IMG/VR virus record: IMGVR_UViG_3300036822_000281
Span: 1-31,516 of that record
Length of the DNA stretch: 31,516 nucleotides
Source of the DNA: a virus
Direction: 5' to 3' (one strand)
Each line of letters begins with the position of its first letter. Within the stretch, counting starts at the first letter, position 1. This document shows, piece after piece, positions 1 to 29,349 of the stretch. Position numbers and translations under genes: made by a program. Below the pieces are notes generated by a model, which saw only the letters and a program-made list of their open reading frames with translations, made no database searches and was not told where the DNA came from.

Positions 1-243
1 ATGGCCAGCCTCACTATTAATGGTCACAAGATCTTTTTTCTAACAGAAAATGATCGATATCCGAAACCGAGGGGGGATAGCGCGGAGATGTTTGCTATCC
101 GCGAAGATGAAGAGAAACAGCACTGGCTTTATATCTTACATAATCGACGCTGGCCGCTTGTCTCTGAAACACCTTTTTCAACACAGGGTGAAGCGATAGA
201 GGCAGCGTTAGCATTCGACATAGCTGTACTCTATAAAAAATAG
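1..243 (+). CDS. Small unknown protein, convergent to the late operon
   Basis: An 80-residue reading frame opens at the first base of the window and stops at 241-243. I do not recognise the family. It is a soluble-looking, mixed-charge protein with several aromatic residues and a C-terminal helix-like stretch rich in Ala and Glu; there is no signal peptide or membrane segment. It is the only likely gene on the plus strand and runs towards the tail-fibre end of the late operon, with a hairpin at its stop codon. A small convergent gene beyond the fibre genes near a phage end is often a lysogenic-conversion gene, but that is inference. Its upstream region and ribosome-binding site lie outside the window, so the true start cannot be checked. 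Confidence 0.5.
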   Translation: MASLTINGHKIFFLTENDRYPKPRGDSAEMFAIREDEEKQHWLYILHNRRWPLVSETPFSTQGEAIEAALAFDIAVLYKK

Positions 244-260
244 CCGGGGTCCATCCCGGC
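235..260 (-). terminator. Intrinsic terminator ending the late operon
   Basis: A 6-bp GC-only stem (243-248 with 255-260, loop 249-254) is followed, on the minus strand, by TA and then a run of six T (235-240). It lies just after the stop of the 303-aa gene and is the natural 3' end of the tail operon. On the plus strand no T-run follows, so it would only work poorly for the convergent gene. Confidence 0.75.
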
Positions 261-266
261 ATCGCA

Positions 267-1178
267 TTACATCCCCAGTCTCGACACAAGAATCGCATCA
301 GACTCATCAGCGGTATGCAGGCAGAGAACGTCTTGAAACGCCCCATAGCACGCACCGACCGCACTAGCAGTTTGAGTCCCACCGATCAGCAACGGCGCTG
401 TATTGCCGACCAGGCTCGCCAACTTACCAGTCACTGACGGGATTGATGGCTTCAACAGCGTCCCTTTCTCGTACCCTTCTATCACACCAGACGAAACCTT
501 AAACAGACCAGCTGACGGGATGTAATCGGCATACACTGTTGTCGCAACATAAAGAGCGTTGCCATTCCCCGCTGGCCACCCGTTATCACGCGTCCCATAG
601 CGCCATGCTTCCGTAGTGCCCTGACCATTAGTTATCTGCGTGCGCAAGTATGCCAACGGCAAATTGTTAATGTTATATCCGGCAGTGATCCCATTGTTAT
701 CGGCCCTATCCAAGTCACTCATTCGTCCGGAAAGCAGATACGACTTTCCTTTTTGGATGATTTGGTTCGTGCGGCTCTTCAGGAACCAACCACCTGCCGA
801 AGAAACTTTTATAATCACAGCATGTGATGCTGCATCGTAAATCATGGGAAACTGGGGATCTGGAGTGCCTTGGGAACCCGCTAACAAGTCACCACTTGCG
901 CCAAGCATGTTATAGACAGTCTGGACGTTTCCGAAACCATCAACTTTTATGCCAAACGCTGGAGCCGCACAAATCGTCGTACGTTCGTATATTGCGTTAT
1001 TTAGCAGAAAATTAAAGCGAGCCAGACAACCCGCTTCATCAGGAATGTAACCACCATCCGCTACAACCCGCGATTTATACGCGTTGAACAATGCTTGTGG
1101 ATCAAAAATTGAAGCAGACATATCAAGAGCTGTACGCCAGCCGCCATATGCTTTTCCCGTACTTGTTGCCGATGTCAT
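267..1178 (-). CDS. Tail-associated protein of unknown function, coupled to the tailspike
   Basis: The protein has 303 residues. The start ATG shares its A with the TAA stop of the tailspike gene (TAATG), with GGAGA a few bases upstream, so translation is coupled; a longer frame exists but the overlap decides the start. The first 40 or so residues look helical, and the rest is rich in Gly, Ser, Thr, Asn and Tyr, as in beta-sheet receptor-binding or lectin-like proteins. No catalytic motif or signal peptide is visible. As the last gene of the late operon, after a fibre-like gene, it is likely a virion adhesin part, a chaperone, or a second subunit of the receptor-binding complex. This is inference from position only. 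Confidence 0.7.
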   Translation of the reverse strand: MTSATSTGKAYGGWRTALDMSASIFDPQALFNAYKSRVVADGGYIPDEAGCLARFNFLLNNAIYERTTICAAPAFGIKVDGFGNVQTVYNMLGASGDLLAGSQGTPDPQFPMIYDAASHAVIIKVSSAGGWFLKSRTNQIIQKGKSYLLSGRMSDLDRADNNGITAGYNINNLPLAYLRTQITNGQGTTEAWRYGTRDNGWPAGNGNALYVATTVYADYIPSAGLFKVSSGVIEGYEKGTLLKPSIPSVTGKLASLVGNTAPLLIGGTQTASAVGACYGAFQDVLCLHTADESDAILVSRLGM

Positions 1179-3865
1179 TAAAATTCTCCTGTAAGCGGTA
1201 GACGGTCGAGGCATGCCCAGTTGAACATTGGGAATGGCTGACCGTTACGGGTGATCCAGCGTGATGTTTGTGTTGAGCTATCTCGAAGACAAACCAATGG
1301 GTAGACAAAGTCTTTGATGACCGGCACCGTGTTTGTAAAACCGATAAGCAAATGATCGGATATCGCCGGTGCATGATTTAGGGTTATGCGAATGGTGTTC
1401 TGCTTTATAACAGATACAGATTGAATCACCGCACTGCCATCCAGCAGGGAAAACCCCTGCCCTGGACAATCAGCAATCGTGGTTGTGTCAATCACCAACG
1501 GAAGATAAGGAACATCGAAAACGATATCGATCGTGCTACCGTTAACAGATAATGAGCGAGCCTTAAGCCCAGTCCATGTGCCTTTTTTCTCAGGGTCATA
1601 CAGATGCCAGTAGATAGCCTGTGCGGCGTATTCACCTTGTAACACCTTCCCCGCAGCATTTAAGTGGCTCAGCGTTGCATCGTTATACAGCCAGTTCAGC
1701 GGATACTTAGGCCCGTAAATGATGGCCTTTGCCGCGTTCTGCCGCACGTAAGTTAACTGGTCTGTTGCCGCAACCGAATACGGCTGCACGACCACAGGCT
1801 CTCCGATGGGATTTCCCTGATCGTCTACCTGTTGGTTTTTTGTATTAACCCTGCTTCCGACCTGCCCAATCACCTCCGCGAAATTATCGGTCTGCCCCGT
1901 GATCCCTTTAAAATCCAATTGGAGGCCAGAAAAATAAGGCTTCATCTTCGCGAGATAATCGCCAGGATTTTGTGAGCTGCCGTTATCGTTGTCCGTCTCC
2001 CCATGCTCGAGCGTCATAAATTTGAAGGTATATCGTTTCCCTACCCCATTGGCCGCATTTTTCCCAAGCTGGACGAAATCTAGTCCGTTTTGATAAGGAA
2101 TCGTCCCTTTGCTTATTTCTACGAACGATCGACCACCGGCGGCAAATGGCGCGTGAATGAAGACCTGGTTTCCGGGTTTTTTATGAAGCATCGCGTAATA
2201 CATCGGCAAAACATTGCCCTGTCTATATGAGGGATACTGCGCATCGTTGAGAGTGGATAGGTCAGATAGACTAACAGGATCCATACCACCACCTTCAGGC
2301 CTGCCATTTGCCCCGGCAAGAACTCGGCCACGAAAGACAGGATCACGGTTAACAATGTTAATTCCCGCGCCATCTTTCGGTGCGTTGAGTGATTGCCCCC
2401 CCGTCCCACCTCCGTGCGCTTCTTCCGCATCGATAGGCATTTCGCGAATTGATGGCTCGTACTTCACTCCATAGCCAGAAACTGCTTCCCCACCTGGCAC
2501 ATAGCTGAAAATAAAGCCTGCCGATGTCATCTTTTGAGCAGTGAGAACAGGACGTTCTGACCACACGACACTGCCACGCCATGCCGCTGCTGGTATACCG
2601 TTAACCGTTTTAATTGAGGCTAGCGACTCACCGAGGTTGTCCTGGAGTGGGCCATCAATTCCGGGGATGTGTACACCACCATCATCATCAATTGCAAACA
2701 GAGCGGTTTTTAGGTCTTTGGCAAAAAGAACATGCTGGAAACCAACGATACGCCGCGAAAAATTCGTCGAGCAAATTGTATCTAGGCGGTCTTGCAATAC
2801 GTCATCCATTCCAACAATGCGCATATTCCCATCGTCATCAATGGTAATTAGGCCTAACGACCCTGTTTTATCAACGAGAACATGCTGATAACCACGATAA
2901 CGGTTAGCGATGTTCTTCGGGATTAATTGCTCAACATAATCTTGAATAGATGATTTCAGCCCCGCAAGCCACAAGCCGAAGTCATTGTCGAGTGCCATGG
3001 CTGTTTCTGATGGGCCTCGTGCGCCTTCCACAGTCCATTGCCATTGTTCCGACTGATACTGGCGAAGTGCAGCAGTTCTTTTATTTGTTTCAATGAGGCT
3101 GACGACCAGCGAAATAACAGTTGCAGCAATTTCATCAACATATTTCCCGTTGCTCAGATAGCGGCCTGTTGGCGTCGCTACCCCATTGAGGTTCTCATAT
3201 TCATCAACCCACTGCGTTGAAACAGTCGAGCGAACGGAAAAATAACGCCGTGTTTCAACTCCATCGGTAATGGCTTTCTGAGCTTCAGTTTCATCCGTAT
3301 ATGCACCAGAGCCAGATTGAGCTATACCTGCAGCAGCCTCCGATCTTTCTGCCGAGGCATCTGATTGCTTTGCCGCATTAATGGCAGTTAGTGAATTTTC
3401 TGACGAGATTTTTTCACTTAATGCTGCTGAGGCTGAGTTTTGCTCAGATATTGCAGCGTAAAACTTTGAACTTTCAGCTGATAATCCAGATGATGCAGCT
3501 GCATTTGAGGATGTATTTTCCGCCACCTGCATTTGCTGCAACAAGCGGGTCATTTCAGAGAGTAAATTTGGTCCCGGCAGAAAGGAAATAAGGTAATCAT
3601 TAAGTGATGCTGATTGCCCCCCCTCTAATAATTGAATAGAACCTAAAATATCACTTTTACCATTAGGGTATAACGCTGCAACATCATACTCCCCTGGTAA
3701 CAATTCGAATCTATAACTTCCATCACTGCCTGTAATTTGCGATGCATCAAGTTGGCGAAAAGTATTATTAGTATTCCCCCTTAACGTTACACCCAGGCGA
3801 ACATCAGGGAATGGTTTTCCGTCCGGGGTCAGATAGACACCAGAAATAACGATCAATTCTGTCAT
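1178..3865 (-). CDS. Tail fibre/tailspike with SGNH-esterase-like region
   Basis: This is an 895-residue receptor-binding protein. Residues 1-95 match the prophage tail-fibre N-terminal domain type (phage_tail_N, virion-anchoring, with a TDGSYRF-like turn). Residues 100-200 are an Ala/Ser-rich coiled coil typical of fibres. Residues about 322-421 hold two related 50-residue units. The C-terminal half carries an SGNH/sialate O-acetylesterase pattern: GGQS with Ser492, a Gly-rich AAGG block near 583, HGETDN with Glu623, and SHLNAAG with His734. Established knowledge: such domains deacetylate surface polysaccharides during adsorption. It lies downstream of gpD, outside the usual P2 fibre position, and is the second adhesin of this phage. 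Assignment as fibre is firm; the esterase activity is inferred from motifs, and the exact catalytic Asp is uncertain. Confidence 0.85.
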   Translation of the reverse strand: MTELIVISGVYLTPDGKPFPDVRLGVTLRGNTNNTFRQLDASQITGSDGSYRFELLPGEYDVAALYPNGKSDILGSIQLLEGGQSASLNDYLISFLPGPNLLSEMTRLLQQMQVAENTSSNAAASSGLSAESSKFYAAISEQNSASAALSEKISSENSLTAINAAKQSDASAERSEAAAGIAQSGSGAYTDETEAQKAITDGVETRRYFSVRSTVSTQWVDEYENLNGVATPTGRYLSNGKYVDEIAATVISLVVSLIETNKRTAALRQYQSEQWQWTVEGARGPSETAMALDNDFGLWLAGLKSSIQDYVEQLIPKNIANRYRGYQHVLVDKTGSLGLITIDDDGNMRIVGMDDVLQDRLDTICSTNFSRRIVGFQHVLFAKDLKTALFAIDDDGGVHIPGIDGPLQDNLGESLASIKTVNGIPAAAWRGSVVWSERPVLTAQKMTSAGFIFSYVPGGEAVSGYGVKYEPSIREMPIDAEEAHGGGTGGQSLNAPKDGAGINIVNRDPVFRGRVLAGANGRPEGGGMDPVSLSDLSTLNDAQYPSYRQGNVLPMYYAMLHKKPGNQVFIHAPFAAGGRSFVEISKGTIPYQNGLDFVQLGKNAANGVGKRYTFKFMTLEHGETDNDNGSSQNPGDYLAKMKPYFSGLQLDFKGITGQTDNFAEVIGQVGSRVNTKNQQVDDQGNPIGEPVVVQPYSVAATDQLTYVRQNAAKAIIYGPKYPLNWLYNDATLSHLNAAGKVLQGEYAAQAIYWHLYDPEKKGTWTGLKARSLSVNGSTIDIVFDVPYLPLVIDTTTIADCPGQGFSLLDGSAVIQSVSVIKQNTIRITLNHAPAISDHLLIGFTNTVPVIKDFVYPLVCLRDSSTQTSRWITRNGQPFPMFNWACLDRLPLTGEF
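2603..2902 (-). repeat. Two 50-residue repeats inside the tailspike
   Basis: Residues about 322-371 and 372-421 of the tailspike repeat with an exact 150-bp offset. Shared landmarks are a G(Y/F)QHVL start, an IDDDG centre and a (D/G)xLQDxL end. The DNA is also partly conserved, with AGAACATGCTG in both copies on the plus strand at about 2728 and 2878. This suggests a tandem duplication in the fibre shaft or the neck before the esterase region. Confidence 0.75.
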
Positions 3866-3906
3866 GGCGATACTCTTGGTAGGTTAATACTTAATTGAAC
3901 GAGAGG

Positions 3907-5028
3907 TTAGAAATAATCGACACCTTTCTTTTCTTCTTTCTTGGCTTTCGTCTTTTTATTACTCGTACTACGTATGTTGTCCACCAAATTAAAATCCATT
4001 GTCATGCCCTTCTGCGTAAGACTAAATGCTAGGGACTCGATCACCCAATCCCGATCTTCCACCTCACCAAATCCAAAGGTTGTTACCATGCTTTCCGCTG
4101 TTAATGGCAAATATTGCGGACGACAAGGCCCTGCCAGGGTCATCCGAAATTCGTTACGGTTTGCCTGCGTTGCACGAGATTTAACGCGATGATCGGCATG
4201 GGCTTTACTAGGCTGTGTGAAAGGGTTGGTTATATCCGGTCCGTCATGATCAACTTGTGCCGTTTTTGTTTTACCATCGGCCTCATCGAAGTAGTCCACG
4301 CCGACCTTATTTTTTTTCTTATCCCCGCTCGGACCTGTTGCTTTTCCTGTGCTTGCCCCACGATCACCACTTGAATAACTCCAGCTTGAGAGCATCGAGG
4401 GCGTTACTGTTACTGATGACATCGCCTTACCGCTGGCTGCGGCTGCGGCTGCTTGTTCCAGAAAAAGCCAATAGCCACCGCTGGGTTTGCTAATGGCGCT
4501 ATAGTTACGGGCAATCCGCGTTAGCAGGGATGCATCGGACTCTCGAATCTGATCGATATGATCTACCAATATGGTGGCCAACTTATCGGTAACACGTGGT
4601 TTCAGACCATTATCCTGCGCCACAGTTTTCACAATGTCGCCAATTGTCATACTGTCCCAACTGCGTGTTTTTTGGCTTTGAACGTTGCCAGGCTGCTTTT
4701 CAGCATTCATCGGAGCCGCCGTTCCGTAAATAACGACTTTACGCGGTGGACCACTGCTGGAAACACGACTGACTACAAACCACCCTTTGTTAATCAGGTC
4801 ACCATTAAAGCCAAGCGCCAACTGCAATCTGGCCCCCTTAGAGGGTAGCTTTAACGTTTCAGACATCAGCGTAATTTGCAGCTCATCCGCTTTTGCCGTG
4901 GCTCCGCCGTGATCAGTCAGGGTTATTTCTACCAGTCGCTCACGGATAGCCTCCGTTATATCCTTGCCTTCGGCTGTTACGCTAAATTCTGGCCGATACT
5001 CTACCGGGGTTGTCGTGTCCATAATCAT
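3907..5028 (-). CDS. D: Baseplate hub protein, P2 gpD family
   Basis: The protein has 373 residues and belongs to the contractile-injection-system gpD/gp27-like hub family (called late control protein D in P2). It forms the ring from which the tail spike projects. The N-terminal part (PEFSV...GKDIT, then LVEITLTDHGG and ADELQITL) and the middle IGDIVKTVAQDNGL segment are typical of the family. A Lys-rich tail ends in GVDYF, a phrase that also occurs near residue 245. The ATG at 5028 overlaps the TAA of gpX as TAATG; an ATG two codons further in (5022) is better spaced from the GGGA element and is equally possible. Being last in the P2-type block after U and X fits P2 gene order. Confidence 0.92.
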   Translation of the reverse strand: MIMDTTTPVEYRPEFSVTAEGKDITEAIRERLVEITLTDHGGATAKADELQITLMSETLKLPSKGARLQLALGFNGDLINKGWFVVSRVSSSGPPRKVVIYGTAAPMNAEKQPGNVQSQKTRSWDSMTIGDIVKTVAQDNGLKPRVTDKLATILVDHIDQIRESDASLLTRIARNYSAISKPSGGYWLFLEQAAAAAASGKAMSSVTVTPSMLSSWSYSSGDRGASTGKATGPSGDKKKNKVGVDYFDEADGKTKTAQVDHDGPDITNPFTQPSKAHADHRVKSRATQANRNEFRMTLAGPCRPQYLPLTAESMVTTFGFGEVEDRDWVIESLAFSLTQKGMTMDFNLVDNIRSTSNKKTKAKKEEKKGVDYF

Positions 5029-5243
5029 TAATCCCACAATTGAACGGCTGATTCAGCAGCAGGCAGCGTTATATCAGGCAAAGTGATAACCACCCCGGCA
5101 TCGAACACCGCGCCCAATGCCGCCAGGTCCTGATTGGCTTCAAGAACGGACACCACCGTTTCGGCCAGATTTTCCATGCCGTAATGCTCGGCACAAATTT
5201 CATCCAGTACATCACCATCACGGGTTTGATATATCGTCGGCAT
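5028..5243 (-). CDS. X: Tail protein X (LysM-like), P2 gpX family
   Basis: This 71-residue protein has the gpX signature: a short LysM-like fold beginning with a TRDGDVLDEIC stretch, then an HYG motif, a VLEANQDLA helix and a final VVITLPD strand. P2 gpX sits between U and D and is a small baseplate/tail component probably linking hub and tube. Its start overlaps the end of gpU by 26 bp and its stop overlaps the start of gpD. Length and order are exactly as expected for the family. Confidence 0.92.
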   Translation of the reverse strand: MPTIYQTRDGDVLDEICAEHYGMENLAETVVSVLEANQDLAALGAVFDAGVVITLPDITLPAAESAVQLWD

Positions 5244-5688
5244 AATGTTTCATCGTCATTGAGTACGTTTTTTTTCGTGGGCCACCGCCGGGTAAAAACG
5301 ATGGTGTGACATCACTAAAATCTGTGATCACCCACCAGCCCAACACGTCACCTACCCCGCTGACCAGTTGCTGAGGCTCAGCCTTATCGGCCAGGTCATA
5401 CAGTGCATCAATAGAAGCGACGCCCTTCCTGAACAACGCATGGGCTTCACCTTCCATCTTCACGCTACGAGCCGATTTTCCGGTGTATTGAAGCAAGTCC
5501 GCTTTACCAATCCGCTCCTGCTCCCCCCAGCGCCAACTTGCTTCCCGTGAAATTTGGTTATACGTCGCCGAATCGATGGAAAACTCAAAATCCCCCAGCA
5601 TCATCATGACGCGAGGTTCATCAGTCGTACGCCGGTCAGACATACCCTGTTCATACCCGCCGATGACCGTATTGATAATGTCAGACAT
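5218..5688 (-). CDS. U: Tail protein U, P2 gpU family
   Basis: The protein has 156 residues. The pattern is that of the P2 gpU family: a MMMLGDFEFSID strand near the N-terminus, then an aromatic and charged WRWGEQERIG segment, a TGKSARSVKMEGE stretch, and a GDVLGWWVITD strand near residue 120. gpU is needed to complete the tail and lies between tape measure T and X in P2, as here. The ATG shares its A with the TAA of the tape-measure gene (TAATG), so translation is coupled. Confidence 0.9.
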   Translation of the reverse strand: MSDIINTVIGGYEQGMSDRRTTDEPRVMMMLGDFEFSIDSATYNQISREASWRWGEQERIGKADLLQYTGKSARSVKMEGEAHALFRKGVASIDALYDLADKAEPQQLVSGVGDVLGWWVITDFSDVTPSFLPGGGPRKKTYSMTMKHYADDISNP

Positions 5689-7400
5689 TAACCAGCCTCC
5701 GGAATGTCATAGAGTGAGTTATTACCGTTGAAAATATCGTTGCGCCGGGCACTGCCGATCGCTTCATCCGCGACCTGTTTGGGGTCCTGATTTTCGGTGG
5801 CATAAACGTTAACGGTCATTTGTTGACGTCGGTTGTCGTTGACCTCTGGCTTATGTTGGGGTGCAGTATCAGCTTTGCTTAGCACGTCGGTTAAGGTTGG
5901 CCAGGTACCATTCTGATATTGAGCCGTGGAGGTTGCTCCAGCTATCGGTGGAGGATTTTCTCCTAACTTTTTTAATTCACTTAACGGATCAGCACTTCCC
6001 TCACCATCGATGGATAGCAATAACTTACCAGTAGTTTTTTCTTTAAACGCATCCGTTCTTCTACCCACAAACCCGGCGTCTTCCTCCTCACTGCGCCATT
6101 TATCCCTTAAGGCGTTAACCTTCTCTGGGTTGTCCAAGTTTTTGGAAAACCAATCTTCAAGCCCATCTTTTTTTGCATAAATCCGCGCAATTCCTAGCTC
6201 AGTATTTCCGCTCGCCAGCCCCTGAATAATTCGTTTTTTATTGTCAGTATCATCCGGCAAGAGCCATGACAGCTTTTGCGCCAAAGCATAGGCAATCTTC
6301 CCGACATAGATTAAGCCCTGGCCAAACCCGATAAGTTTTGGATACCACTCATTCTGCAGAGCATTACTGATTTTGGTGACACCGCCGTTCTTCAACCAGC
6401 CGCTCAGGTCATTGGCTACCTTGGTGACCTCTGGGGCCAGTTCGTTACCCAATGCACCGGCGATCTCCTCCGCACCGCTTGTCAGTACGGTTTGCAGGTT
6501 GCTGAATGCAATATTGCCCTTCAGTGCCCCATCAGCACCTTGTTGCGTTACCACGTTATAGCGCTTCTGCTCTTCCATGAGCTGCTGGTAAGATTTGCCG
6601 GTAGCACGCATATAAGTCAGGATTTTGTTGGCTTCCCCGCCCATCAGCATATCCACCGCCGAGGCTGCTTTCTGCTCATCCTGCATTTTCAGCGCACGCT
6701 CAAAAATCTTGGACATCTGCTGTTCATTGTTCAGCCCTTTGAACGACTTGCTGCCAAATCCCATCATCGAAAAAGCATCTTCCAGTGATGACATCTTGCC
6801 GAGGGCTTTATACTCACCAACCTTGTTTTTCAGTTCTTCGGCCAGGTCGCCAATATTTTCGCCGTTCATGCCCATCTGTTTCGCCATACTGTCCCAGGCG
6901 TTGTAGGTTTCAATGCCTACGCCGTAGTTTCTAGCCATACCGGCTTTCTCGGCTGTCTTACTGTTCAATGCTACGGGTGACAGCGTGGCACCAATAGCAG
7001 CTGCAGCCAGGCCACCGCCGCCCAATGCCATGCCGCCAGGGAAGGATTGACGGGCAATGTTTAGGGCCTTCCCGAAAGTCCCCCGACCCATTGAACCAAA
7101 CCGCTTCAAACGCTCAGCTTTCTGCAGGTCACGATTAAGCGCCTCTTGTGCGGCTTCCGCCTTTTTGATTTCCCGCGTCACCCCGGCGTAATCTTTTTTC
7201 AGACCGCTGATATCCTTACCCGCCAGTTTGGTCTTTTTCATCTGATCAGCCAGATCGCGCTGTTGCTTTGTCAGTTTCTCTGACTGCTTCTCAACGGTCT
7301 TGATGCCTTTTTTTAACCCTTCCGTAGACCGTCCCCAACTGGCATCGATATTGCCGCCAAACGAGATGGATGCCTTAAGATTTTGGCTTATTGACCCCAC
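5688..7400 (-). CDS. T: Tail tape-measure protein
   Basis: The protein has 570 residues, short for a tape measure (P2 gpT is clearly longer), so a shorter tail is expected. Residues 25-110 are a Lys/Glu/Gln-rich coiled coil; residues about 118-145 form a Gly/Ala-rich hydrophobic segment (GGMALGGGGLAAAAIG) of the kind thought to enter the host membrane; the central part resembles the tape-measure domain with many Met and Gln. The start is a GTG at 7400 with a GGAGG nine bases upstream. It lies inside the end of the frameshifted E-E' frame, so these genes overlap by 26 bp. The order E, E', T, U is that of P2. Confidence 0.9.
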   Translation of the reverse strand: MGSISQNLKASISFGGNIDASWGRSTEGLKKGIKTVEKQSEKLTKQQRDLADQMKKTKLAGKDISGLKKDYAGVTREIKKAEAAQEALNRDLQKAERLKRFGSMGRGTFGKALNIARQSFPGGMALGGGGLAAAAIGATLSPVALNSKTAEKAGMARNYGVGIETYNAWDSMAKQMGMNGENIGDLAEELKNKVGEYKALGKMSSLEDAFSMMGFGSKSFKGLNNEQQMSKIFERALKMQDEQKAASAVDMLMGGEANKILTYMRATGKSYQQLMEEQKRYNVVTQQGADGALKGNIAFSNLQTVLTSGAEEIAGALGNELAPEVTKVANDLSGWLKNGGVTKISNALQNEWYPKLIGFGQGLIYVGKIAYALAQKLSWLLPDDTDNKKRIIQGLASGNTELGIARIYAKKDGLEDWFSKNLDNPEKVNALRDKWRSEEEDAGFVGRRTDAFKEKTTGKLLLSIDGEGSADPLSELKKLGENPPPIAGATSTAQYQNGTWPTLTDVLSKADTAPQHKPEVNDNRRQQMTVNVYATENQDPKQVADEAIGSARRNDIFNGNNSLYDIPEAG

Positions 7401-9870: not shown

Positions 9871-10416
9871 CTATAAAGAGGGAGGGTTTGGCCATGCAAT
9901 ATTAGGTATTTCACTTACATCAACATCCTGAACTTCCTGCACGTACTCCATCCACGAAATTAGAGATATCTTATTGGCATCGGTAATTATCCCCAGCATT
10001 AACTGAGTTTGCCAAGCTTGCGTCTTTTTATTCACGTCCGCAATTAGCCTTTCCTTTTGTAATTCTGCCTGCGCTTGTAGTTCGTCGGGGGTGTAAACAC
10101 GTTTGACAATGCTTTCACCGTCAAATACCCACGCGCCAGATATATCCGCGCGGCGGTTTGCCGTAGTATCCAACACTTCGGCCACGCTAAAACCAACTGG
10201 CCACAGGGTCGAGACATCATTGTTATCTGCAATGCTGCGGATAATGCCTTTGTCATCGTATGCAAACTTTATTGTGTCTGGTAAAAAACCCTTTTGACAG
10301 CCATACCATTCTGTTCCGTTTTCATCGTAGAGAAACATCGTATTGTGTTGATTGCGTAATTTCAGATGCTCGACAGTTTTTGGTTCACCTAACACGAAGT
10401 TCTTAAATATTTTCAT
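9871..10416 (-). CDS. Tail fibre assembly chaperone
   Basis: This 181-residue protein fits the Caudovirales tail-fibre assembly (Tfa/P2 gpG-like) family. Its N-terminal half carries the DENGTEWYGCQKGF and IKFAYDDKGIIRSI strands typical of such chaperones; then come an ISGAWVFDG element, a charged helix (QAQAELQKERL), and a C-terminal half resembling the widespread DUF-type end with SWMEYVQEVQDVDVS and WPNPP. It helps fold and trimerise the C-terminus of the neighbouring fibre and may stay bound to it. It starts 3 bp after the fibre stop, as usual for such pairs. Confidence 0.92.
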   Translation of the reverse strand: MKIFKNFVLGEPKTVEHLKLRNQHNTMFLYDENGTEWYGCQKGFLPDTIKFAYDDKGIIRSIADNNDVSTLWPVGFSVAEVLDTTANRRADISGAWVFDGESIVKRVYTPDELQAQAELQKERLIADVNKKTQAWQTQLMLGIITDANKISLISWMEYVQEVQDVDVSEIPNIAWPNPPSL

Positions 10417-10419
10417 TGA

Positions 10420-11919
10420 TTAACGTCCTATCGTGAGCCATTGACCATTTTTGTAAATCTGGATATAGCTCCAGAACAGGGACTCGGCAGAATAGTCACC
10501 GTCTCTGTTATCGAATCCAGTTAAAACAGTGTTGTCGTGATAAGTATAAATTCCTGTAGCTCCGTGTTGAGTCTCTGCTGTGTATCTGACGTTTTGAATA
10601 AAATTTTGGTTTACCCAATCATATGTTGCTCGAGAATTTAAATTATTAACCAACCAATCTCGCAGATAACCGCCCCACATCGTCCCCTCAATATTTCCAT
10701 CAGGATAGAGTTTTGAGCCGTTACCACCGCCAGCCCCCACTGTACTACCTGCGCTGAATGAGCCGTCATTGCGGAATTCATACCAGCCGTCAGCGCCACC
10801 ATTGGCAACATGAATACCTAAGTAGTGGTGCTGCCCCTTGCGCTCTTGCTGGTACAAGTCAGCAAACAAATTCCCGGCACCCTGTATTCTCATACCGTTA
10901 GTTTGTATTTCATTATTACCAATATCTTGAAAACCACGTTTCGTAATAAAGTCTTTACCGTTTACATTAAGTGTTTGCTCAATGGTTGTATCCTTTCCAA
11001 CGTACAAACCTTCGGTTACATTTAATGCTTTAATAGTATCGCCATCTTTGTAGACAAAACGTTTATCGGCCTCCCCTTTACTCCATGCCCCAACGTCGCT
11101 TGCAGTAGGTTTATAATCAGTCGTGTAGATTCGACTCCATTTCACTCCATTTACAGGTACGCTTGACGATCCAACATACGCTGCACCATTTCCTGATACG
11201 GCAATATATCCTGTTGACGGACCAGCATCACATGGCAGACTAACGACACCCGTGGCAATATTCCCTGTAATTGGCGGACCATTAACTGAAGACGCATTAA
11301 CACGATAAAATTGCGCGATATTACTGTATGCATTATCTTTGCTGTGAGGCCCATCCCCCAGACCAAAAGCACCGACCTGCATTACATTCCCATCGGCAAT
11401 TCCGACGTCCTTTATTGCTGCTGTACCTAGCTCAAGATTTTTACGCGATTTTACTTTATCTTTTACATCAGAAAGATTTGCATCCTGGCGTAAGAATAAA
11501 CCCTCTCCGGTTGCAACATTTAACGTTACGTTATCAGTCTCTGAGACAGCAAGACGGAATTGCATTACGATACTGACACCATTAGTGGGCTTATCAAAGG
11601 TCGCGCAGTTAGCAATTGCGTACAGCTCGCCTTTGTCTGTCAACAGGCCAATCTCACGCACTGTGAAACCACCCACGTTCGCTGGAATGACTAACTGCGC
11701 AATAATTTGATTAGGTTGGTCGGTTGATACCGTTAAATCTGAAATGCTGTTGCGATAGACTTCATGAACCAATGCTGTACGAGCTGGGTCGGGTATCTGA
11801 GCCTGGCCGTTACCGTCACCCACGACAAACTTAACAAGCGTTATCTTTGTGCCATTAGCTATCGCTGCCGCCTCCAACGCCTTACCGGTATTGGTGAGTA
11901 TTGCGTAATAATCTGCCAT
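10420..11919 (-). CDS. H: Tail fibre protein, P2 gpH-like
   Basis: This fibre protein has 499 residues. Residues 1-150 match the P2-type fibre N-terminal domain (phage_fiber_2/DUF3751 type): ADYYAILTNTGKALEAAA, then LVKFVVGDGNG and VREIGLLTDKGELYAIAN. The middle carries short beta repeats (ASDVGAWSKGEADKRFVYKDGD) and the C-terminus has the FWSYIQIYKNGQWLTIG ending seen in many fibres, likely the receptor-binding tip. It is flanked by gpI and a fibre-assembly gene, as in P2 (I-H-G). The ATG shares its A with the TGA of gpI. The phage therefore has two unrelated adhesins, this one and the esterase-type protein at 1178-3865. Confidence 0.93.
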   Translation of the reverse strand: MADYYAILTNTGKALEAAAIANGTKITLVKFVVGDGNGQAQIPDPARTALVHEVYRNSISDLTVSTDQPNQIIAQLVIPANVGGFTVREIGLLTDKGELYAIANCATFDKPTNGVSIVMQFRLAVSETDNVTLNVATGEGLFLRQDANLSDVKDKVKSRKNLELGTAAIKDVGIADGNVMQVGAFGLGDGPHSKDNAYSNIAQFYRVNASSVNGPPITGNIATGVVSLPCDAGPSTGYIAVSGNGAAYVGSSSVPVNGVKWSRIYTTDYKPTASDVGAWSKGEADKRFVYKDGDTIKALNVTEGLYVGKDTTIEQTLNVNGKDFITKRGFQDIGNNEIQTNGMRIQGAGNLFADLYQQERKGQHHYLGIHVANGGADGWYEFRNDGSFSAGSTVGAGGGNGSKLYPDGNIEGTMWGGYLRDWLVNNLNSRATYDWVNQNFIQNVRYTAETQHGATGIYTYHDNTVLTGFDNRDGDYSAESLFWSYIQIYKNGQWLTIGR

Positions 11920-25197: not shown

Positions 25198-26226
25198 TTA
25201 GTTACTCGGGAAGATTTCCCGTTGTGTTTGTTCGAATCGGTCAGGTTCCAACTCAACCCCCAGCCCGACACGGCCCAGCTTGATAGCAGCCTTTATCGTT
25301 GAACCGGAACCCATGAAGAAGTCAGCAACGACATCACCAGGGCGGCTACTGGCACTGATGATGTGCTCCATCATTTCAGCGGGCTTTTCGCATGGATGTT
25401 TACCGGCATAGAAAGCCACCGGCGAATAAGTCCAAACGTCTGTATAAGGCACCGCAGCAGTTACCGTGAAAGTACGCCGCAATGATTTATATTCCCGGCA
25501 CAAGTCCAGATATTCACGATTGAGGGTTTTGTATTCCCTTACCAGCTCATGATGGGGGCGATTCAACCCACCAGCCTGTTGCTTCTCAATAGCGATGCGG
25601 TCAAACAACGCTTGGAGCGCTTGATACTGCTTTTCGCTTGGCAATTGCCATTGGCTCTCTGAGAACCAGTGGCTGCACATCTGCGTTTTCGTTGCCGCGT
25701 TGATTTCCTTCGCTGACACGCCGAGAGATTGCCGCGCCGTTCTGAAATAGTCGATCAGAGGCTTTAATACGGTTTGCTTCAGCTCGCCACACTTCACGGC
25801 GAAACCGTCCACCTTCGGTTGTAGCGGCCCTGCATAATGACCGGCGAAAATGATCCGCTCGGTCGCCGGGAAGAACGCTCGGAGACTCTCTTTGTGATGA
25901 CGTCGCCAAACGCCTGAAGGTTTAGCCCAAACGATGTGGCTCAGTACGTCGAACCGCTGGCGAACCAGCAGCTCAGTATCAGACGCCAACCGGCTACCGC
26001 AGAACATGTAAAGACTGCCGTTAGGCTTAAGCACCCGCCAGAATTCCACCAGCAATGAATCCAGCCAGGCTAAATACTCAGCCTCACTCTTCCATTGATT
26101 ATCCCAATCGCAGGATTTCACCCGGAAATAAGGCGGGTCCGTGGCGATCAGGTCGATGCAGTCATCAGGCAGGATTTTGATGTATTCGAGTGTGTCAGCG
26201 TTGACAAGACTTGTGCTGGATATCAT
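25198..26226 (-). CDS. Beta-class DNA N4/N6 methyltransferase
   Basis: The protein has 342 residues. DPPY (30-33) precedes the SAM-binding FFMGSGST segment near residue 310, which is the order of beta-class amino-methyltransferases of the N6_N4_Mtase type. Between them lies a large target-recognition region with helix-turn-like segments (INAATKTQMCSHWFSES). It would methylate adenine N6 or cytosine N4 in a specific site, probably to shield phage DNA or to alter gene expression; no partner nuclease is nearby, so it is an orphan. The start overlaps the upstream small ORF as ATGA. The target sequence is unknown. Confidence 0.92.
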   Translation of the reverse strand: MISSTSLVNADTLEYIKILPDDCIDLIATDPPYFRVKSCDWDNQWKSEAEYLAWLDSLLVEFWRVLKPNGSLYMFCGSRLASDTELLVRQRFDVLSHIVWAKPSGVWRRHHKESLRAFFPATERIIFAGHYAGPLQPKVDGFAVKCGELKQTVLKPLIDYFRTARQSLGVSAKEINAATKTQMCSHWFSESQWQLPSEKQYQALQALFDRIAIEKQQAGGLNRPHHELVREYKTLNREYLDLCREYKSLRRTFTVTAAVPYTDVWTYSPVAFYAGKHPCEKPAEMMEHIISASSRPGDVVADFFMGSGSTIKAAIKLGRVGLGVELEPDRFEQTQREIFPSN

Positions 26227-28191: not shown

Positions 28192-28559
28192 GCCTGCACC
28201 TCACTGATCCGCATCTCCACCTTGCCGCCCTTGGTCACCGGCCCCCACTTCGCATCGATGTGCTTGATCTGACTGTCATCGAGCCACACACCCGCCTGGG
28301 TCATGGCGTCAAACAGTGCCTTGAAGAAGCTATCCAAATCCATCCGGGCCTTAGTCGGCGGGAAGAACACCACAGTTACTGATATATCCGCGCTGATTGG
28401 TTTTGGTCGGCGGCGCAGTTGCTCCATAACCTGGGCAATGGCTTCTGTCTGGAATGCCCTGCCGCGCTCACTGACCAAAGTACGGCCTCGGGATGATCCC
28501 TTGTTTGGTGAACGCCAGTAGCCGTTAACACTGGGCGGGAATGGCAACGTTAAATTCAT
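28188..28559 (-). CDS. rusA: RusA-type Holliday junction resolvase
   Basis: The protein has 123 residues, the size of RusA. It begins NLTLPFPPSVNGYWR and has the conserved acidic core: KARMDLDSFFKALFDAMTQAG near residues 70-90, then WLDDSQI, which supply the metal-binding Asp residues, and KGGKVEMRI at the end. As a dimer it cuts Holliday junctions formed in phage recombination or replication. Its ATG overlaps the MT-A70 stop by 4 bp. Confidence 0.95.
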   Translation of the reverse strand: MNLTLPFPPSVNGYWRSPNKGSSRGRTLVSERGRAFQTEAIAQVMEQLRRRPKPISADISVTVVFFPPTKARMDLDSFFKALFDAMTQAGVWLDDSQIKHIDAKWGPVTKGGKVEMRISEVQA

Positions 28560-29125
28560 GCAGCCACCTCTGCCTTACCCGGTACCAGAATCACAGACTG
28601 ATCGCACTGATTACCCCAGGTATGCCAGCCGTCGGTATGATTACGGGCGAACAACTCAATGCGCGGTACATCGCCAAGCAGATCGACCAACTTTTCGCGG
28701 AAAACCTCAGGCTTTGCGCTGTGCTCCATTCGTGGTGCCGTAATGTGTTGGCAAATCGATGCATCCAGGCGCGGTGGCAATTTGCCCTTGACCGCAAACA
28801 GGCAGTCTTCGCTGTTGGCTCGGGTCATGTGGCCCATGCCAATTGCGCTATTCCCTTTCACACGGTTTGTTTTATGCCAGGTGAAGCCCTTCATTGTCAT
28901 CAGGCGGAACCCCCAGGCGTCGATCACCTTCAGTGCTTCCGTCGGCATCGTCGGTACCCACCACATGGCCAGCAGGCATGAATCAGCAGCCAGATCCCAC
29001 ACTGGTAAACGGCAGATATCGGCAACCGTCATTGTTGGGTACTTGAAACCGGCACCGCGGTTGCCGTCTTTGCATTTGTCGCTGTAAGTCCACGCCGGAT
29101 CGGCGTAAATCAGTGGGTATTTCAT
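28556..29125 (-). CDS. MT-A70 family adenine methyltransferase
   Basis: The protein has 189 residues. It has the catalytic DPAW (residues 9-12, where most of the family has DPPW), the GAGFKYPTMTVADICRLPV segment, a LLAMWWVPT strand, a GFRLMTMKGFTWHKTN strand, and the C-terminal KPEVFREKLVDLLGDVPRIELFAR. MT-A70 enzymes methylate adenine N6 in nucleic acid; phage members act on DNA. The start overlaps the upstream stop as ATGA; a longer frame lacks that coupling. This is the second methyltransferase in the window, in a different family. Confidence 0.92.
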   Translation of the reverse strand: MKYPLIYADPAWTYSDKCKDGNRGAGFKYPTMTVADICRLPVWDLAADSCLLAMWWVPTMPTEALKVIDAWGFRLMTMKGFTWHKTNRVKGNSAIGMGHMTRANSEDCLFAVKGKLPPRLDASICQHITAPRMEHSAKPEVFREKLVDLLGDVPRIELFARNHTDGWHTWGNQCDQSVILVPGKAEVAA

Positions 29126-29349
29126 TTCAAGCCCTCCGTCGCCCTTCGTACCAAATACCGGATCCCGTAGTAATCCCAGCCAAAGTGCTGGCGCTGCCAG
29201 TCTGTTAGCCATCCCTGCGAAATTGCGTATTTGCGAAAATCCCCGCGCTCCTGCCAAGTACGCCGTGCCTCACGTAACATCCACCAGCGATACACCCGTT
29301 GCGCCACGGCCAACAGAGGCAAAACCTCAATGCCTGATACACACTTCAT
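29122..29349 (-). CDS. Small unknown early protein
   Basis: The protein has 75 residues, basic and aromatic (WRWWMLREARRTWQERGDF-like centre, then YGIRYLVRRATEG). No known domain is recognised. The start overlaps the upstream stop as ATGA, and the stop overlaps the methyltransferase start as ATGA, so it sits firmly inside the coupled early operon. Its size and Trp/Arg content suggest a small DNA- or protein-binding factor, but this is only inference. Confidence 0.75.
   Translation of the reverse strand: MKCVSGIEVLPLLAVAQRVYRWWMLREARRTWQERGDFRKYAISQGWLTDWQRQHFGWDYYGIRYLVRRATEGLK

Follow-up and report, generated by a model that had tools for sequence, protein, structure and literature searches.

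What is the large second tail fibre encoded at positions 1178-3865 of IMG/VR record IMGVR_UViG_3300036822_000281, and what would it do at the surface of the host? The window analysed here is the entire record, 31,516 bases. A sequence-only reading of it had described a large adhesin besides the P2-type fibre, with SGNH-esterase motifs on a fibre N-terminal domain. We consider it highly probable that this protein is a receptor-binding fibre with an SGNH tip, which would most likely deacetylate an O-acetylated host polysaccharide through Ser492 and His734. The observation in the sequence-only reading was right and its interpretation mostly right. This kind of protein is already known, as its closest named relative, p27 of Serratia phage vB_SspM_BZS1, was described in 2020. 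As far as a non-exhaustive literature search can tell, the present analysis adds its place on a P2-type tail, its linkage to a partner gene over 51 loci, natural swaps of fibre parts and a displaced active-site Asp.

Layout and fold of the second fibre

The open reading frame (ORF) of the fibre is uninterrupted across 895 codons. Because an H-like fibre (10420-11919) and its chaperone (9871-10416) are also present in the record, the protein at 1178-3865 is a second fibre, as had been proposed. Its parts are as follows.

1178..3865, minus strand: second tail fibre, 895 amino acids (aa), predicted SGNH esterase domain in the C-terminal half (ORF; PF08400, PHROG, profile and fold matches)
3491..3853, minus strand: attachment domain resembling phage_tail_N, residues 5-125 (PF08400 match)
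1586..2464, minus strand: predicted SGNH core, residues ~468-760, edges approximate (VIA-align ranges on the predicted model)
1181..1585, minus strand: beta-rich C-terminal region, residues 761-895 (partly within the 9vyh match)

PF08400 (phage_tail_N) matched residues 5-125 with E 7.7e-6 and 26.4 bits, slightly below the cut-off of 26.6. The fibre also matched PHROG tail-fibre families, with PHROG 4201 covering residues 565-890 (E 7e-55). These matches bear out the proposed fibre N-terminal domain, and an attachment domain of fibre or spike type is thus present on the same chain as the SGNH domain. Residues 1-200 alone gave no match in the phages collection at E 1e-5. Residues ~100-185 are rich in Ala and Ser and form, by eye, a candidate coiled coil; a stalk and two related repeats, the latter also recognised by eye, precede the tip of the fibre.

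We aligned residues 300-895 of the window fibre with 23 relatives that are 18-88% identical to it (alignment A2, 24 rows). The resulting profile matched PDB entry 9vyh, the tailspike of cyanopodophage Pan3, with E 2.1e-14 over profile positions 183-559. The match runs from block I to block V and on into the C-terminal part, placing GQSL over the GQSL of 9vyh and the block V His over the His of its DFVH. The SASA family (PF03629) was found in three of the 24 rows at E up to 1, with a best value of 1.6e-9.

An AlphaFold2 monomer model of residues 300-895, built from 19 sequences, pointed to the same fold. Foldseek ranked 9vyh first (E 1.5e-18), followed by XAC1771, 9h4u, a sialate esterase, 1zmb, 2apj and 9ega. 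At E up to 0.001 there were 14 rows, of which the first 13 were 9vyh or esterases of SGNH fold, a class to which we take 1zmb and 2apj to belong; the 14th was an S-layer protein. In VIA-align, 9vyh reached Z 29.8 (386 residues aligned, root-mean-square deviation (rmsd) 11.0) and the carbohydrate acetylesterase XAC1771 (7kmm) Z 22.7 (314 aligned, rmsd 3.6). These were followed by 9h4u (Z 19.7), 9ega (Z 18.8), and next 2apj and 1zmb. Sialate esterases scored Z 17.2-17.9 (8f9o Z 17.9) and NanS Z 16.3, while peptidoglycan O-acetylesterases and lipases had lower values of about 10.5 to 13. The SGNH core on which the sequence-only reading depends is supported by the profile match to 9vyh and by this predicted structure of middling quality, and the assignment of the C-terminal half of the fibre to the SGNH fold family is likewise supported on the model.

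An SGNH-like domain in a large tail protein of phage N4 (PDB 9yf5 and 9lc0) is suggested by its match to the SGNH region of the model, at Z about 13.

Active-site residues and the function of the tip

The numbering of Ser492, Glu623 and His734 was right; they lie in GGQSL, GETD and LSHL, respectively. The candidate active-site positions are listed below.

2390..2392, minus strand: Ser492, predicted nucleophile, block I GQSL (24/24 rows; aligned to GQSL of 9vyh)
2132..2134, minus strand: Gly578, likely the block II Gly, from motif order (24/24 rows)
1997..1999, minus strand: Glu623 of GETD, block III position (Glu in 21/24 rows)
1679..1681, minus strand: Asp729, at -5 from His734 (Thr731 occupies -3, the Asp position of DxxH)
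1664..1666, minus strand: His734, predicted catalytic His, block V (24/24 rows; aligned to the DFVH His of 9vyh)

Eleven columns of the 24-row alignment were invariant: Q491, S492, L493, G578, G609, Q668, P719, H734, G739, G744 and G804 (alignment columns were converted to fibre residues by a shift of 299). On this alignment the motifs exceed a chance pattern, as the invariant columns include Q491-S492-L493, G578 and H734. At the Glu623 column, the three rows without Glu have G, Q and Q. Block III carries the Asn of GxND in classical SGNH members and GE in SASA-like members. The fibre and 9vyh both have GET and 2apj has GES, so that the fibre shows the SASA-like form only and the classical Asn is absent.

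Block V was compared over 53 fibre ORFs, 51 of which have it intact; in L058 and L060 (L numbers denote retrieved loci) it is not intact in the frame read. The counts are not independent, because many of the 53 fibres are near-identical. Asp stands at -5 in 39 of the 51 intact fibres, with Thr (22) or Ser (17) at -3. Asp at -3 was found in nine fibres by script and in L034 and L035 by eye, and L037 has Asp at -4. Fibres of the OS31 type read SKPGGH, with Asp at neither -3 nor -5. The L050 fibre, which shares 71% identity with the window fibre in residues 300-895, reads YGVDLSH where the window reads YNDATLSH, and the Asp therefore seems to have moved within the loop. The element orienting His734 could be Asp729 at -5, or the site could work as a dyad. 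PMC12313940 describes sialate esterase with a Ser-His dyad, and CE20 enzymes in which a water lies between His and Asp. Since such enzymes are active, a displaced Asp does not imply loss of activity.

Several results weigh against an esterase at the tip. The window fibre had no Pfam esterase match, either as the whole protein or over residues 300-895, where no family came up at E up to 1; it did not reach the cut-off of SASA (PF03629) and falls outside that Pfam family. It had no NCBIfam match, and a PDB search with the single sequence retrieved no SGNH structure. Model quality was middling, with a mean predicted local distance difference test (pLDDT) of 61 and a predicted template modelling score (pTM) of 0.59. 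pLDDT exceeds 80 in many core elements, whereas the ten-residue blocks that contain Ser492 and His734 have means of 41 and 59, and the Ser492 stretch lies below 50. Moreover, Thr731 occupies position -3 from His734, where the Asp of DxxH is usual, and Asp729 sits at -5.

The shift or absence of this Asp in so many fibres, near-identical as many of them are, would fit a tip with an SGNH fold but without enzyme activity that only binds sugar. We regard this as unlikely, because Ser and His are invariant in all 24 rows despite the wide divergence of the relatives, and because the dyad and water-mediated enzymes are active without a direct Asp. Still less probable is an active SGNH esterase with another substrate, such as peptidoglycan O-acetyl or lipid esters during penetration. 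Peptidoglycan O-acetylesterases and lipases do occur among the lower fold matches, but the top of the list is taken by a tailspike and by acetylesterases acting on carbohydrates or sialate, and the fibre N-terminus and the exchange of tips between phages (see below) fit a receptor-facing part. Finally, GQS and GE are short, and the missing Pfam esterase match of the single sequence would agree with chance motifs in an ordinary fibre. This explanation is very improbable in view of the profile match, the fold matches and the residue invariance, and the predicted structure also speaks against it.

For the preferred reading, a receptor-binding fibre with a deacetylating tip, the analysis shows the fold family, the conservation of Ser and His, the gene context and the exchange of modules, while we infer the activity, the substrate, the trimer and the order of events. 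The N-terminal domain would anchor the fibre to the P2-type tail, with the stalk and two repeats carrying the tip. The tip would be an SGNH hydrolase akin to O-acetylesterases of sialate and other carbohydrates, with the beta-rich C-terminal part behind it, and would bind O-acetylated host polysaccharide (O-antigen or capsule). Ser492, activated by His734, would then remove an acetyl group, and the virion would bind, release and move inward until the H-like fibre or the baseplate reaches the final receptor. Homology with phage esterases of tested activity (two Klebsiella prophage fibres, Possum gp66 and G7C gp63.1) makes it likely that the fibre deacetylates capsule or O-antigen. A receptor distinct from that of the H-like fibre, as the sequence-only reading predicted, is plausible.

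The partner gene and the exchange of modules

The record is a mosaic, in which O-like replication, Q-like antitermination, holin, endolysin, Rz and head genes are combined with a P2-type contractile tail. The tail genes lie on the minus strand and comprise baseplate, H-like fibre, chaperone, sheath, tube side, tape measure, U and D; by their order, the baseplate genes are read as V, W, J and I. Downstream of gene D follow the SGNH fibre (1178-3865) and then a partner gene (267-1178).

267..1178, minus strand: partner gene, 303 aa from the overlapping ATG (one-base overlap with the fibre stop, TAATG; AGGAG ahead)
3907..5037, minus strand: P2 gpD-like tail protein directly upstream of the SGNH fibre (PHROG 52, E 2e-95; matches annotated gene D proteins)
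10420..11919, minus strand: P2 H-like tail fibre, 499 aa (PHROG 381, E 5e-57)
9871..10416, minus strand: tail fibre assembly chaperone (PHROG 136, E 1e-59)
243..260, minus strand: terminator-like hairpin and T run directly after the partner gene, probable operon end

The partner was counted over 51 distinct loci, excluding L035 and L037, which match only part of the fibre. These loci include the window's own virus (L002) and fibres about 30% identical to the window fibre, and are not independent. Four of them end too soon; in all 47 whose sequence extends 400 bases or more past the fibre, a partner homologue follows. It follows directly in 46 of the 47, and in L058 the partner frame starts 353 bases on. 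L094, L095, L096 and L110, outside the 51-locus count, also carry a partner homologue. The genes after the SGNH fibres of L035, L036, L038, L090 and L093 were not detected as partner relatives, and the linkage is therefore limited to this fibre subfamily rather than general to SGNH fibres. The fibre reading frame of L058 (3824-5892) is interrupted, whereas that of the partner is open.

The only PHROG match of the partner was PHROG 28256, of unknown function (E 2e-29). The partner and its relatives had no Pfam match below E 0.05 and no PDB match, and AlphaFold2 modelling from 11 close homologues gave a mean pLDDT of 33. A lectin-like partner was considered and rejected: the only hint was a Laminin_G_3 match (E 0.033) of the gene that follows an SGNH fibre of another kind (L090), and the profiles of the two types of downstream gene showed no relationship when compared.

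Divergence of fibre and partner was correlated over 45 pairs (Spearman 0.85; 0 of 2000 permutations as high), which is weak evidence because neighbouring genes share ancestry. The pairs came from 43 of the 51 distinct loci plus L110 and L094; L058 was dropped for its broken fibre frame, and L003, L005, L025, L029, L060, L064 and L069 because contig ends cut them. Among 36 closer loci, the correlation with the partner was 0.59 to 0.66 for the SGNH core, 0.58 for the repeats, 0.61 for the C-terminus and 0.37 for the stalk. Hence, the partner tracks the SGNH core no usefully better than the repeats or the C-terminus.

Comparison of related phages revealed exchanges of fibre parts. L110 is close to the window in the sheath (95% identical) and gene D (93%). 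Its fibre is 76% identical over residues 1-185 and 26% over the remainder, and its partner 37%. Judging from these identities, the adapter is kept and tip and partner are replaced together; there is also divergence in the H-like fibre (32% identical over part) and the chaperone (38% over part). Between the window and BZS1, with 14 kb of BZS1 compared, 2.8 kb of DNA is common over fibre and partner, and elsewhere only pieces of 92 and 53 bases. L030 (fibre at 3803-6229) resembles L027 in the stalk (95%), repeats (90%) and partner (97%), whereas the first two parts of the SGNH core are 39-43%, the third 67% and the C-terminus 54% identical. Compared with L056, it is 94-99% identical in the core and C-terminus, but 50% in the stalk, 67% in the repeats and 58% in the partner. 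By these comparisons L030 is a mosaic: in this single case stalk and partner stayed the same while the catalytic tip between them was exchanged, and we argue from it that the partner does not have to fit the enzyme's substrate. As read from the alignments, phages of different types have exchanged tip and partner, and in one instance the SGNH part alone.

These natural swaps separate the backbone adapter, the catalytic tip and the partner, and the predicted SGNH receptor-binding enzyme sits on a P2-type tail alongside an H-like fibre. Tentatively, the locus may represent a transferable two-protein receptor cassette with a separately exchangeable catalytic domain and, in place of DxxH, a His-activating loop rearranged to have Asp at -5 or to work by a Ser-His dyad, although we lean against this wider proposal. 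The partner is the part most worth a bench test, being virion-associated in a relative and beside the fibre in every checkable relative of the subfamily.

Nine P2-type relatives with a gene D 56-60% identical to that of the window were compared for second fibres. In five of the nine (L111, L114, L116, L118 and L119), a long ORF that follows the H-like fibre distantly matched residues 5-112 or more of the SGNH fibre (24-28%), and second fibres are therefore no rarity in the P2-type group. L112, L113 and L117 end before or near the place of the second fibre, and L115 extends further with no second-fibre match.

Five terminator-like sites were found in positions 1-5300, compared with 5.3 in shuffled sequences; as the count does not exceed expectation, the hairpin at 243..260 is supported by its position alone. 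A longer contig, IMGVR_UViG_3300035562_000044, was identical throughout the 7,865 bases compared. Two scans of the genome-contig collection confirmed no relatives, the plasmid collection held none at E 1e-5, and blastn found no match to 2,431 bases in E. coli genomes. A 647-base lysis stretch of Serratia phage OS31 is 88% identical to the window; from this stretch and BZS1, our guess would be a Serratia host. Elsewhere, this small record has two DNA methyltransferase genes (25198-26226 and 28556-29257; PHROGs 6952/67 and 359). A short ORF at the record edge (1-243, plus strand, opposite to the fibre) had no PHROG match at E 0.001.

Known relatives and compared systems

With the whole fibre as query, tblastn matched 13 phage records, none of which covers 80% in one place. 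The best match was BZS1 p27 (MT843275), 83% identical over residues 189-895. PMC7556043 reports pfam03629 in p27 by HHpred, describes it as a tail fibre of the virion that bears an acetyl-esterase domain, and proposes O-antigen deacetylation; p27 and the partner homologue p28 were detected in virions by mass spectrometry (PMC7556043). BZS1 has the same two-gene order, and its partner is 73% identical. Unlike in the window, its tail genes are annotated as Mu-like and the N-terminal part of the fibre differs. BZS1 also has an O-acetyltransferase gene near the fibre, noted by its authors (PMC7556043), for which no relative was found in the window stretch around the fibre (L001). Relatives of this gene also lie near the fibre in L024 and L020. 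In total, within the few kilobases retrieved around each fibre, three distinct loci carry an OafA-like O-acetyltransferase gene on the opposite strand: L033 (4010-5140), L024 (2305-3441) and L020 (2305-3441). There, the O-acetyltransferase may add acetyl groups and the fibre esterase may remove them.

The Pan3 tailspike (9vyh) shares the SGNH core and the C-terminal part over a long match, but identity is 16-19% and its block V, DFVH, has Asp at -3. The fibre of Pseudomonas phage VW-6B (MF975721) is 28% identical over 76% of the fibre and adjoins a partner homologue (31%), whereas its block V reads DFLH. The Klebsiella prophage fibres 164_08-KL2 and 174_38-KL55, compared by description only, are likewise temperate-phage fibres with an SGNH domain. 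PMC13123978 reports both as active on p-nitrophenyl acetate, and ranks SGNH with the commonest enzyme domains of receptor-binding proteins from Klebsiella prophages. Possum gp66 strips O-acetyl groups from O-polysaccharide (PMC9569702), and gp63.1 of E. coli phage G7C is cited as a lipopolysaccharide deacetylase in PMC13123978 and PMC9569702. Like the window fibre, gp63.1 (4qnl) is an SGNH tail fibre, although a distant fold match (Z 11.0, 200 residues aligned, 6% identity). The fibres of Acinetobacter phages SH-Ab 15497 and DMU1 are distant relatives, 25-26% identical over residues 562-892; according to PMC11058221, they carry SASA and SGNH domains and their trimer models match 7KMM first.

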